A stretch of 64,000 nucleotides of DNA from Leifsonia shinshuensis (GTDB taxonomy: Bacteria > Actinomycetota > Actinomycetes > Actinomycetales > Microbacteriaceae), in the NCBI RefSeq assembly GCF_013410375.1, contig NZ_JACCFL010000001.1:3038001-3102000 (forward strand), written 5' to 3'. Below, piece after piece: positions 40,858-48,699 of the stretch; within the stretch, counting starts at the first letter, position 1, and each line of letters opens with the position of its first letter. The notes beneath the pieces are model-generated. The model was not told the DNA's origin and searched no databases. It saw nothing but the letters and a program-made list of their open reading frames with translations. The translations under genes were made by a program, and so were the position numbers.

Positions 40858-42855
40858 CTAGGCCTCCTCCTCGGCGGGGGCGGCGAACTGGGCGTTGTAG
40901 AGGGTGTAGTAGGCGCCGCCACGGGCGAGCAGCTCGGCGTGCGTGCCCTGTTCCACGATCCGGCCGGCCTCCATCACGAGGATGAGCCCGGCGTCGCGGA
41001 TGGTGGAGAGCCGGTGCGCGATCACGAACGACGTGCGGTCGGCGCGCAGCGCGCTCATCGCCTTCTGCACCAGCAGCTCGGTGCGGGTGTCCACCGAGGA
41101 GGTCGCCTCGTCGAGGATCAGCACGCTCGGCCGCGCCAGGAACGCCCGGGCGATCGTCAGCAGCTGCTTCTCCCCCGCCGAGACGTTGGAGCCCTCGTCG
41201 TCCAGCACCGTGTCGTAGCCGTCCGGGAGCGAGTGCACGAAGCGGTCGACGTAGGTGGCGCGGGCGGCATCCAGGATCTCCTCCTCCGTCGCGTCCGGGC
41301 GGCCGTAGGCGATGTTCTCGCGGATCGTGCCCTTGAACAGCCAGGTGTCCTGCAGCACCATCCCCATCCGGTCGCGGAGGTCGTGCCGGGTCATCGACGC
41401 GATGTCCACGCCGTCGAGGGTGATCCGGCCGGAGTCCAGGTCGTAGAAACGCATCATCAGGTTGACCAGCGTGGTCTTGCCCGCGCCGGTCGGGCCGACG
41501 ATCGCGACGGTCTGGCCGGGCTCGGCCACCAGCGAGAGGTCCTCGATGAGCGGCGTGTCCGCCACGTAGCGGAACGAGACGTCCTCGAACGCCAGCCGGC
41601 CGCGGGTGCCCTGCGGGCTCACCGGCCGCTCCGGGTCGGGGCTCTGCTCCTCCGCGTCCAGCAGCTCGAAGACCCGCTCGGAACTGGCCACGCCGGACTG
41701 CAGCAGGTTGGCCATCGACCCGAGCTGCGTGAGCGGCTGGGTGAACTGGCGCGAGTACTGGATGAACGCGGTCACGTCGCCGAGCTGCATCGCGCCGCTC
41801 GCCACCTGGAGGCCGCCGACCACCGCGATGGCGACGTACATCAGGTTCCCGACGAACATCATCGACGGCATGATCAGGCCGGAGATGAACTGCGCGCCGA
41901 AGCTCGCCTGGTACATCTCCTGGTTCTTGGAGCGGAAGCGCTCCTCCACTTCGCGGTGCCGGCCGAAGACCTTCACCAGCGAGTGGCCGGTGAAGGCCTC
42001 CTCGATCTGCCCGTTCAGCTCGCCGGTGTTGCGCCACTGCGCCACGAACATCCGCTGGGAGCGCTTGGCGATCAGCATCGTCACGACGAGGGTCAGCGGG
42101 ATCGTGACGAGCGCGATCACCGCCAGCAGCGGCGACACCACGAACATCATCACCGTCACGCCGATCACCGTCAGCAGCGAGGTGAGCAGCTGACTCATCG
42201 TCTGCTGCAGGGTCTGCGAGATGTTGTCGATGTCGTTCGTGACCCGGCTCAGCAGCTCGCCGCGCTGCATCCGGTCGAAGTAGGTCAGCGGGAGGCGGTG
42301 GATCTTGGCCTCGACGTCCTGGCGCAGCCGGTAGACCGTGCGCTGGGTGATCCCGTTGAGCACGTAGCCCTGGAGGTAGGCGAACAGCGACGACGCGATG
42401 TAGAGCGCGAGCACCCACATCAGCACGTGGCCGACCGCGGTGAAGTCGATCCCCTCGCCCGGCGTCAGCGTCATCCCCGAGATCAGGTCGGCGAGCTGGC
42501 CCTGGCCGTGGGCGCGGAGGCCGGCGATCGCCTCCGCCTGCGTGATGCCCTTCGGCAGCTGGGCCGAGATCGCCCCGGCGAAGACCAGGTTGATCGCGTT
42601 GCCGAGCAGCTTCGGGCCGAGTACGGCGAAGACGACGCTGACGACCGCGAGCAGCGTGACGAGCACGATCCCGATCCACTCCGGCCGCAGGCGCGCGGCG
42701 AGCCGCTTGGCGGACGGGCCGAAGTTGAGCGACTTGTCGCCGGGCATCGTCATCCCGCCGAAGGGGCCGCCGCCGCCCGGGCCGCGGCGGACCGGCGTGC
42801 GGACCGGGGTCTGCTCGGCGGCCGGCGTGCGCTGCGCGCTGTCCTCGCGGGTCAT
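40858..42855 (-). CDS. ABC exporter half-transporter (permease-ATPase), second of a pair
   Basis: 665 residues. A Gly/Pro-rich N-terminus of about 50 residues, six membrane helices (about 60-370), then an ATPase with IVGPTGAGKTTLVNLMMR (Walker A), ENIAYGRPDA, NVSAGEKQLLTIARAFLARP (signature, VSAGE instead of LSGGQ) and VLILDEATSSVDTRT (Walker B). An extra loop (about 125-160) separates helices 1 and 2. It likely forms a heterodimer with the next gene, whose stop overlaps its ATG (4 bp). Exports an unknown compound. Confidence 0.88.
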   Translation of the reverse strand: MTREDSAQRTPAAEQTPVRTPVRRGPGGGGPFGGMTMPGDKSLNFGPSAKRLAARLRPEWIGIVLVTLLAVVSVVFAVLGPKLLGNAINLVFAGAISAQLPKGITQAEAIAGLRAHGQGQLADLISGMTLTPGEGIDFTAVGHVLMWVLALYIASSLFAYLQGYVLNGITQRTVYRLRQDVEAKIHRLPLTYFDRMQRGELLSRVTNDIDNISQTLQQTMSQLLTSLLTVIGVTVMMFVVSPLLAVIALVTIPLTLVVTMLIAKRSQRMFVAQWRNTGELNGQIEEAFTGHSLVKVFGRHREVEERFRSKNQEMYQASFGAQFISGLIMPSMMFVGNLMYVAIAVVGGLQVASGAMQLGDVTAFIQYSRQFTQPLTQLGSMANLLQSGVASSERVFELLDAEEQSPDPERPVSPQGTRGRLAFEDVSFRYVADTPLIEDLSLVAEPGQTVAIVGPTGAGKTTLVNLMMRFYDLDSGRITLDGVDIASMTRHDLRDRMGMVLQDTWLFKGTIRENIAYGRPDATEEEILDAARATYVDRFVHSLPDGYDTVLDDEGSNVSAGEKQLLTIARAFLARPSVLILDEATSSVDTRTELLVQKAMSALRADRTSFVIAHRLSTIRDAGLILVMEAGRIVEQGTHAELLARGGAYYTLYNAQFAAPAEEEA

Positions 42856-46952: not shown

Positions 46953-47572
46953 CGACCGAGACCGAGAACCCCGCCGCCCTCCCGGCCGAGGCCGTCACCC
47001 GCGTCGCCCTCGTGGTCGGCGACGACGGCCGGGCCCGCTGCTCCTGGTCGGCCAATGACGCCGAGTACCGGCGCTACCACGACGAGGAGTGGGGCACGCC
47101 GCAGCACGATCCCCGCGCGCTCTATGAGAAGCTCTGCCTGGAGGGGTTCCAGGCCGGGCTGTCCTGGATCACCATCCTGCGGCGCCGGCCGGCGTTCCGG
47201 GAGGCCTTCGACGGCTTCGTCCCGGAGCGCGTCGCCGCCATGACGGAAGCGGACGTCCAGCGGCTGCTCGGCGACGAGCGGATCATCCGGCACCGCGGCA
47301 AGATCGAGGCCACCATCTCGAACGCACGGGCGACCCTCGCGCTCGACGTTCCGCTCGAGGAGCTGATGTGGGGCTTCGCGCCGACGAGCCCGCGCGCACG
47401 GCCGCAAGCCTGGGGCGACATCCCGGCCGTCACCGCCGAGTCGACGGCCATGAGCAAGGAGCTGCGCCGCCGCGGGTTCCGCTTCGTCGGGCCGACCACC
47501 ATGTACGCGCTCATGCAGGCCACCGGGATGGTGGACGATCACTTCGACGGGTGCTTCCGCGCCGGCGCGTGA
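46949..47572 (+). CDS. tag: DNA-3-methyladenine glycosylase I
   Basis: 207 residues. Removes 3-methyladenine. YHDEEWGTPQHDPRALYEKL holds the Trp/Glu pocket, EGFQAGLSWITILRRRPAF the HhH start, and FRFVGPTTMYALMQATGMVDDH the C-terminal zinc-binding region; the zinc Cys of the N-terminus is in RCSWS. N-terminal extension of about 30 residues. Translationally coupled to ogt (ATGA), so both alkylation repair proteins are made together. Confidence 0.92.
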   Translation: MTTETENPAALPAEAVTRVALVVGDDGRARCSWSANDAEYRRYHDEEWGTPQHDPRALYEKLCLEGFQAGLSWITILRRRPAFREAFDGFVPERVAAMTEADVQRLLGDERIIRHRGKIEATISNARATLALDVPLEELMWGFAPTSPRARPQAWGDIPAVTAESTAMSKELRRRGFRFVGPTTMYALMQATGMVDDHFDGCFRAGA

Positions 47573-47594
47573 GGCGGGCGGCGGGCCCTGGACG

Positions 47595-47836
47595 AGAGCC
47601 GTGGCTCTGAACGAGAGAGTCGGGCCGACGAGGACGCTCTACGGAACCGTTCTCGCTGGTGGCGACGCGTCCGCTCGTGCCCGACCGCAGGCGGAATCTA
47701 CTGTGCTGCCGCCACACCGGTTCCGGGCTCGGCACATCGTGTGATGCGACCGCGATCAGCGCGTCGGCCCGACTGGTATGTGGGGTCCCTCGGCGTCACG
47801 GCGCCGGGACCTGACGGGATGTCCCTTCTCTCGTTG
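47595..47836 (-). ncRNA. Candidate structured small RNA, 6S/Ms1-like rod
   Basis: Only gene-free gap above 300 bp (47573-47898). On the minus strand, TATGCT (47842-47847) would start RNA at about 47836. Helices: 47828-47835 with 47610-47617 (8 bp); 47762-47774 with 47618-47630 (13 bp, perfect); 47718-47724 with 47643-47649 (7 bp); 47708-47715 with 47659-47666 (8 bp, including a G-U possible only in the minus-strand RNA); 47691-47695 with 47670-47674. A side hairpin (47785-47810, GGTCCC/GGGACC plus GGCG/CGCC) sits between the first two. The stem-loop AGAGC-CGTG-GCTCT (47595-47608) may end it. Paired ends and a long rod recall 6S or Ms1 RNA; no family sequence was recognised. Confidence 0.45.
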
Positions 47837-47898
47837 AGGTGAGCATATCTCACTTACTGGCGCAGCACCAGGCTCTGTCGGTCTCCGCGGGAAAATCG

Positions 47899-48699
47899 TC
47901 AGCCTGCTGAGCGCAGGACCGCGCTCAGCTTGCCGGGCACGCCGATGATCTCCGGGACGACCAGGTCGAGCTCCCCCGGCCGCAACGTCGAGCGGGTCAG
48001 CTCATAGCCCTCGGCTGCCGCCCACGCCAGCAGCGCGTCGACCGACCCGAAGTCCTCGCCGTGCTCGATGAGCGCGCGCGCGAAGAGGCCCTTCGCCTGC
48101 TTGTTGAAGTGGTTGAGCGCGCGGACCGTGCCGTTCTCGTCCCGGGCGAGCACGCGCAGATAGTGCGCGTGGTCCCGGGCCGGCAGCGGCCCCAGGGCCG
48201 CGTAGCCCTCCGAGCGGAGGTCCAGGATCACGCCCTCCACGGCTGCGAGCTGCACTGCGCACGCCGCAGCCCAGCGCTTCTTGAGCGTCGGGGTCAGCCG
48301 CGAGTCGAACGAGAGGCGATACGCCGGGATCGGGTCGTCCGCACGGACCAGCCCGAGGAGGGCCGACTGCACTGCGACCGTCCGCGAGGCGAACCGCCAC
48401 TGCTCCGGGGTCAGCGACTGCGCGTCGAGCGCGTCGTAGAGGACGCCGGTGTAGCGCAGCAGGGCCGGCATCGTCGCCGCACTCCGCAGTGCGCGGTTGC
48501 GCTCGATCTCGTGCGCCTGCTTCGGTCCCAGCTTGAGCGCACGGGAGGCGGCCTCCGGAGAGGCCGAGAGCGCGACCGCATCGGCTACCACCCCGTCGCG
48601 CGTCGCCGTCAGCGCGGGGAAGCCCAGCGTCTCCAGGGCGAGCGGGACTCCGTCTCCCCCGTCGCGCTTGGTCTCGGACGGGGGCAGCAGAACGAGCAC
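47899..48699 (-). CDS. yaaA: YaaA-family peroxide-stress protein
   Basis: 266 residues. MLVLLPPSETKRDGGDG, TGVLYDALDAQSLT, PIPAYRLSFDSRLTP and NHFNKQAKGLFARALIEHG are the YaaA (DUF328) signature. In E. coli YaaA limits free iron during peroxide stress and has a DNA-binding fold. GTG start directly follows the stop of the P-loop kinase-like gene, placing it at the end of the ATP synthase transcript. Confidence 0.88.
   Translation of the reverse strand: MLVLLPPSETKRDGGDGVPLALETLGFPALTATRDGVVADAVALSASPEAASRALKLGPKQAHEIERNRALRSAATMPALLRYTGVLYDALDAQSLTPEQWRFASRTVAVQSALLGLVRADDPIPAYRLSFDSRLTPTLKKRWAAACAVQLAAVEGVILDLRSEGYAALGPLPARDHAHYLRVLARDENGTVRALNHFNKQAKGLFARALIEHGEDFGSVDALLAWAAAEGYELTRSTLRPGELDLVVPEIIGVPGKLSAVLRSAG

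Follow-up and report, generated by a model that had tools for sequence, protein, structure and literature searches.

A structured noncoding RNA is almost certainly encoded on the minus strand of the 326-bp interval (positions 47573–47898) that separates the stop codons of the convergent genes tag and yaaA in Leifsonia shinshuensis. On comparative sequence grounds, the preferred reading, given a probability of roughly 0.8, is that this RNA represents a new family: an independently transcribed, trans-acting structured RNA that probably binds protein. All positions refer to the window, the 64,000-nucleotide stretch of DNA that was analysed. The predicted gene, of ~226 nt, occupies 47610–47835 on the minus strand; its start is taken from a −10 box and its end from the outer helix. 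The family core consists of helices P4, P6 and P7, to which most members add a side hairpin, P5.

Locus and promoter

The tag stop codon ends at 47572 on the plus strand, and the yaaA stop codon lies at 47899 on the minus strand. A repeat search of the interval recovered the nested inverted repeats from which a first-pass annotation had proposed a rod-shaped small RNA: a 12-nt repeat (92%; 47607–47618/47827–47838) that contains the outer helix, a perfect 13-nt repeat (47618–47630/47762–47774) and a 15-nt inner repeat (80%; 47642–47656/47711–47725). Two further features lie at the outer-helix end of the RNA, namely a hairpin, AGAGCCGTGGCTCT, immediately outside the outer helix (47595–47608) and a 15-nt direct repeat at 47584 and 47603.

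The minus-strand TATGCT box of the first-pass annotation is real. It lies at 47842–47847, which predicts a first transcribed base at about 47835, at the outer helix. Motif comparison across loci shows that it belongs to a longer promoter motif, AAGTGAGATATGCTCA (47840–47855, minus strand), which is found upstream of the RNA in 33/33 loci outside genus g57 with 0–4 mismatches to the consensus AA-N-TGAG-N-TA-W-R-CTCA. Loci L163 and L172 carry it as well, bringing the total to 35/39; at the four g57 loci the full motif is missing, and only TGAGNTANNAT can be read there. A weak −35-like element, TGGTGC, may lie 17 nt upstream of the −10 box (47865–47870, minus strand), and resembles TTGCAT in L019 and neighbouring loci. 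Transcription would start from a housekeeping-type promoter. The alternative that the motif is a regulon operator was rejected, as a scan of the own genome at ≤2 mismatches finds it a single time, compared with three times for the backwards control. In six loci (L018, L021, L023, L026, L035 and L049), an additional 5′ domain of ~50 nt (GGTGAAGC..GCTTCG) lies between the promoter and P4.

Predicted fold and conserved parts

All elements of the fold are read on the minus strand. The 5′ strand of the outer 8-bp helix, P1 (47828–47835), pairs with 47610–47617 and is recognised as a repeat, without covariation support. It is followed in the predicted fold by a small hairpin, P2 (GGGACATCCC; 47816–47825), and by a 10-bp side hairpin, P3 (47784–47811). 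The latter, built from GGTCCC/GGGACC and GGCG/CGCC, is probably the 10-bp side hairpin described in the first-pass annotation. The 5′ strand of P4, AGTCGGGCCGACG (47762–47774), is supported by double changes, tree parsimony and strand swaps, and its 3′ strand, CGTCGGCCCGACT (47618–47630), by alignment and covariation; a pyrimidine-rich stretch follows the latter. Hairpin P5 (47730–47752) shows double changes in 8/8 model pairs. The same holds for 7/7 model pairs of P6a (5′ strand 47718–47725, partner 47642–47649) and for 6/6 model pairs (helices 4 and 5) of P6b (5′ strand 47710–47714, partner 47660–47664). The rod is capped by the apical hairpin P7 (TCCGC-C-TGC-GGTCGG-GCA-CGA-GCGGA; 47670–47695), the most conserved part of the RNA, in which two pairs carry double changes from CG to UA. 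An internal loop conserved by identity, CAGCGAGAA (47650–47658), separates the 3′ strands of P6b and P6a.

Conservation across the structure-fitted alignment, A5, peaks in the apical hairpin GCCUGCGGUCGGGCA and not in a central bubble. Mean identity is 0.95 in P7 (24 columns), 0.91 in P4 and 0.85 in the AGCGAGAA internal loop, and falls to its lowest values, 0.47–0.52, in junctions J4/5, J5/6, J6b/7 and J6/4. The motif GCGGTCGGGC is present in 37/37 loci, and its loop is exposed in the model. The invariance of P7 extends beyond what pairing requires, and a partner may therefore recognise its sequence. A switch in which the P7 loop, GGUCGGGC, competes with the 5′ strand of P4 for GCCCGAC was also considered; the sequence permits it, and the variation is too small to decide.

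The smallest members are the two g54 forms, L163 and L172, in which P4 follows the promoter almost directly and there is no space for P3. Their predicted rods of ~135 nt have z-scores of −4.3 and −5.3, and the predicted +1 lies no more than one or two bases from where the closing helix begins. In L163, P4 pairs GTCAGGCCGAGG with CCTCGGCCTGAC, and its differences from the Leifsonia form are compensatory. The model gives the two forms modest scores of 22.8 and 32.0 bits, and membership is accepted because the promoter, the locus and the invariant hairpin are shared. The rod with paired ends envisaged in the first-pass annotation fits these predicted g54 forms best; the Leifsonia form is a rod to which a 5′ domain (P1–P3) and hairpin P5 are added.

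Strand assignment

Folding energies were compared with those of dinucleotide shuffles. For the sequence of this locus in the window, the minus strand folds at −119.5 kcal/mol (z −3.5; 1/200 shuffles equally good) and the plus strand at −132 (z −4.6; 0/200). Since the plus strand of this one sequence folds better, folding energy is not enough to assign the strand. Across 39 cores with 60 shuffles each, z was below −2 in 37 on the minus-type strand and in 32 on the opposite strand; the minus-type strand had the lower z in 25/39 cores and the lower energy in 26/39. When the fitted alignment A5 is read in the minus-type orientation, 94 cells hold G-U and 16 hold A-C. Together with the promoter motif in 35/39 loci, this count bears out the earlier claim that promoter and fold agree on the minus strand. 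Weak model matches on the opposite strand occur at three loci (E 0.06–0.1) and in the window (E 0.037). A helix at columns 43–47/71–76 in the first RNAalifold fold of the structure-free alignment, A1, was held to be spurious because MAFFT had misplaced P5.

Compensatory change

A covariance model, R2, was built from eight Leifsonia sequences and comprises P4, P5, P6a, P6b and P7. It recovers 37/37 loci, 29 of them outside the building set, on the yaaA strand with E-values from 1.9e-32 to 3.8e-4. In A5, 96.5% of 1449 cells are paired and 28/41 pairs show double changes. The covariation measure is 0.480, against 0.165 in shuffles and ≤0.060 when partners are slid; slid partners pair 29–36% of cells, and all measures lie above those of 500/500 shuffles. 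As A5 was fitted to the structure, these pair counts are biased towards it, and three checks were therefore made: strand swaps, tree parsimony and the structure-free alignment A1.

In the strand-swap test, a locus's own partner strand paired better than the mean of swapped strands in 34/37 loci for P4, 33/36 for P5, 36/37 for P6a, 31/37 for P6b and 28/37 for P7a; the strands were cut at A5 columns, so that the P5 and P6 results are not wholly independent of the structure fit. On a tree of the Tag and YaaA proteins, parsimony with ties broken towards paired states counted 100 pair-keeping double changes, 75 pair-keeping single changes and 29 breaks; partners slid by 1–2 columns gave 2–9 double changes. 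The structure-free alignment, which covers P4 and P7 only, has 99.2% paired cells versus 98.4% in shuffles. Two of its pairs show a double change, a number reached by 59/500 shuffles, and six of its cells do so, against 1.4 in shuffles (0/500 reach six). Alignment A1 lends P4 no more than modest support.

The first-pass annotation had made its case depend on compensatory changes that keep the pairing in relatives. Such changes are seen, with 100 double changes against 29 breaks and strand-swap results in the same direction from P4 to P7. Its picture of nested helices with paired ends holds in part: P4, P5, P6 and P7 covary, but the outer 8-bp helix, P1, paired better with its own strand than with swapped ones in only 11/22 short-form and 5/12 long-form loci, and has no covariation support.

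Distribution in Microbacteriaceae

A search with the interval found matches in 26/28 Leifsonia genomes, including the own genome, and each of the 26 main matches is flanked by tag and yaaA in convergent orientation. There is a single match per genome in 24/26, and the other two have an extra match of 27–29 nt. The covariance-model search of other Microbacteriaceae proposed in the first-pass annotation extended the RNA to further genera: it occurs in Leifsonia and six other Microbacteriaceae genera, at 39 loci in total (26 in g1, two each in g9, g29, g54 and g55, four in g57 and one in g69). The gene yaaA adjoins the RNA in 39/39 loci and tag is seen in 38/39. Genus g29 has the RNA in 2/2 genomes and g57 in 4/5; in the fifth g57 genome, which gave no match, the locus measures 29 nt. 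A search of 199 Microbacteriaceae genomes with model R1 hit 14 genomes, from 6/85 genera; its filters were strict, and the two g54 members, identified afterwards, escaped it. From a separate search with 14 hits, five (L036–L040) were dropped, as neither tag nor yaaA was seen beside them. At the level of the order, the own genome was the only match among 396 genomes.

The exact core motif occurs in 20 stretches from named genomes. Thirteen belong to Leifsonia species, to Microbacterium sp. STN6 (as filed) and to Microbacteriaceae MAGs, and in these yaaA is adjacent in 13/13 and tag in 11/13. The remaining seven, and three viral stretches, were read as chance. Of these ten, five match only those model positions that make up the short motif, and L065, L173 and L175 have no model match at E up to 1. 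The alignment spans the whole model in two stretches, L062 from Nonomuraea (26.7 bits, E 0.025) and L174 (20.0 bits, E 0.26); because the motif had picked these stretches, both matches are read as chance, with less confidence for L062.

The RNA is absent from some relatives. The two Leifsonia genomes without a match measure 2.6–2.7 Mb; their yaaA and tag stop codons lie 19 nt apart, and a model search of these genomes gives nothing better than E 2.7. Beyond these, 76 stretches downstream of yaaA were collected from 62 genera, of which the 47 with tag (35 genera) inform on the locus. One of the 76, L094, comes from the end of a contig of G081, where yaaA was matched a second time; that genome has the RNA elsewhere. 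The gap between aligned ends is below 250 in 31/47 tag-bearing stretches (22 genera). Only L163 among the 76 has both the core motif and the promoter motif, and weak model matches in the others were read as chance. In the other 46 tag-bearing stretches, from 34 other genera, short gaps or other material occupy the locus, and the genomes were otherwise searched with strict filters. The long yaaA–tag gaps of L096, L098, L099, L100 and L104 hold repeats or ORFs, and the core motif was not found in them. By eye, the interval in L099 and L100 contains a small membrane-protein-like ORF, and that in L096 and L098 contains repeats with GTCCCTGAGCTTGTCGAAGGGAC-like units.

Comparison with known RNAs

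No Rfam 15 family was matched by the window at gathering thresholds, by positions 47400–48000 at E up to 5 or by eight relatives at E up to 1. This agrees with the first-pass annotation, which had recognised no 6S, tmRNA, SRP or RNase P sequence and had called for such a search. A conserved reading frame is likewise absent, with segment lengths falling in all three residues modulo 3 and stop codons in 16, 26 and 19 of 34 cores in frames one to three. Among the open-licence papers listed by term searches, no description of the RNA was seen, and no paper in that literature pairs Microbacteriaceae with '6S RNA'; the main texts of two structured-RNA surveys (PMC8632094, PMC11109978) contain none of the taxon and gene terms looked for.

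Ms1 is known by its HAD-hydrolase neighbourhood and its binding of the polymerase core (PMC9130861, PMC4191392). The Leifsonia RNA resembles it as a stand-alone actinobacterial RNA in the range of ~200–300 nt, with a paired-end rod and side hairpins, and in being missing from some reduced genomes; Ms1 is reported to have been lost in small-genome actinobacteria (PMC9130861). It differs in its flanking genes, tag and yaaA, where no HAD-IB hydrolase synteny of the Ms1 type was seen. The own genome has three TIGR01490 matches, all below cut-off, and the neighbourhoods of the two strongest have no long adjacent interval. The pattern of conservation differs too: the bubble and adjacent helices are the most conserved parts of Ms1 (PMC4191392), whereas here it is the apical hairpin. 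Finally, the host family, Microbacteriaceae, is outside the published Ms1 family list, which derives from a synteny search and can miss members (PMC9130861).

6S RNA (RF00013) binds sigma–RNA polymerase and serves as template for a product RNA. With it, the Leifsonia RNA shares a closing helix, internal loops, a terminal stem-loop and paired ends. Unlike 6S RNA, it has no Rfam match, and its predicted fold shows no clear large conserved central bubble; there are junctions, in which conservation is lowest, and the g54 forms are predicted to be rods with small asymmetric loops. CoRP of Corynebacterium offers a further likeness: it too is actinobacterial, restricted to one clade and outside the 6S and Ms1 families. 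However, CoRP is ~500 nt long and lies among tRNA genes (PMC11077062), in a tRNA-Gln/tRNA-Glu neighbourhood, whereas the Leifsonia RNA is ~226 nt long, lies between yaaA and tag, and has no tRNA gene anywhere in the 64-kb window. Because Rfam results, synteny, length and neighbourhood differ, the RNA is not filed under 6S, Ms1 or CoRP. Membership of the 6S/Ms1 class, which the first-pass annotation had raised from the plan of the fold, is thus not borne out, and the comparison stays an analogy.

Possible functions

Two explanations would tie the element to its locus or to mobility. A bidirectional terminator or antisense brake acting in cis between tag and yaaA would account for the constant neighbours described above and for the pyrimidine-rich stretch after P4. 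Against it, no intrinsic-terminator-like site was found: the number of short G+C-rich hairpins leading into a run of T in 47400–48100 is 0, with 0.1 expected. The tag–yaaA pair needs no such element, as gaps are below 250 in 31/47 stretches, and termination requires neither a dedicated promoter nor an invariant loop. Since the gene pair occurs without the RNA, synteny alone does not link the RNA to tag or yaaA, and a role in cis is considered quite improbable. A mobile-element relic or repeat, suggested by the nested inverted repeats, is scarcely credible. The own genome has a single match and no second copy, most Leifsonia genomes have one each, and relatives carry the RNA at the same locus; plasmids and phages gave no match at E 1e-5, and the absence from two genomes is clean. 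The terminator array and mobile relic that the first-pass annotation had listed as alternatives are accordingly disfavoured. The 11-mer GTCGGGCCGAC occurs four times in the window against 0.39 expected, and two of these copies are the P4 arms. The others lie at 41489–41499 and within the tag codons for FVGPT (47486–47496). Pairing of P4 with these tag codons was rejected: the two do not coevolve, the locus's own combination exceeding swapped ones in 16/38 and 20/38 loci (in L049, one of the 38, another site was chosen). In the absence of coevolution, the shared 11-mer is read as a coincidence of codon use.

That lack of coevolution also weighs against a base-pairing regulator, in which the G-rich loop GGUCGG would pair with mRNAs carrying CCGACC-type sites. 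The presence of GCGGTCGGGC in 37/37 loci, with its loop exposed in the model, fits such a role; however, the invariance extends into the helix and the internal loop, which would better suit a protein site, and on this sequence evidence base-pairing is thought unlikely. Similarly doubtful is a role equivalent to that of 6S, Ms1 or CoRP, as an abundant RNA that would bind RNA polymerase and tune it with growth phase. The analogy draws on the paired-end rod predicted to start at its closing helix, which L163 and L172 show most clearly, on a host family absent from the published Ms1 list (PMC9130861), on the proposal that each species has one abundant RNAP-associating RNA, some of them of unknown type (PMC11077062), and on the absence at the locus in two reduced Leifsonia genomes, which recalls the loss of Ms1 (PMC9130861). 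It is opposed by conservation that peaks in P7 (0.95) and P4 (0.91) and not in the bubble as in Ms1 (PMC4191392), and by the 46 tag-bearing stretches from 34 other genera in which the RNA was not seen at the locus, in genomes otherwise searched with strict filters.

The preferred reading remains an independently transcribed RNA of a new family that acts in trans. Its ends are proposed to be closed through base pairing, and its sites of action would be the invariant apical hairpin, with the loop GGUCGG, and the conserved internal loop AGCGAGAA. The RNA would most likely dock a protein, sequestering or modulating it; that it works in trans by protein binding is rated, from the sequence, at about even odds. 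RNA polymerase is the favoured first candidate partner, because the Ms1 list (PMC9130861) does not include Microbacteriaceae and no 6S report for the family was found in the literature searched; by analogy, its being the bound protein is nevertheless a tentative suggestion. Slightly less probable again is the fuller version, in which the RNA would form a fourth class of abundant polymerase-associated RNA beside 6S, Ms1 and CoRP, docking via its apical hairpin and not via a bubble.

Significance

The promoter motif, fold and invariant hairpin together give a computational definition of a structured RNA family that had no name. Its hosts are members of a large actinobacterial family not listed among the published carriers of Ms1 (PMC9130861). 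If the RNA binds polymerase, it would test the proposal that each species has one such RNA (PMC11077062); if it does not, the invariant hairpin points to some other partner.
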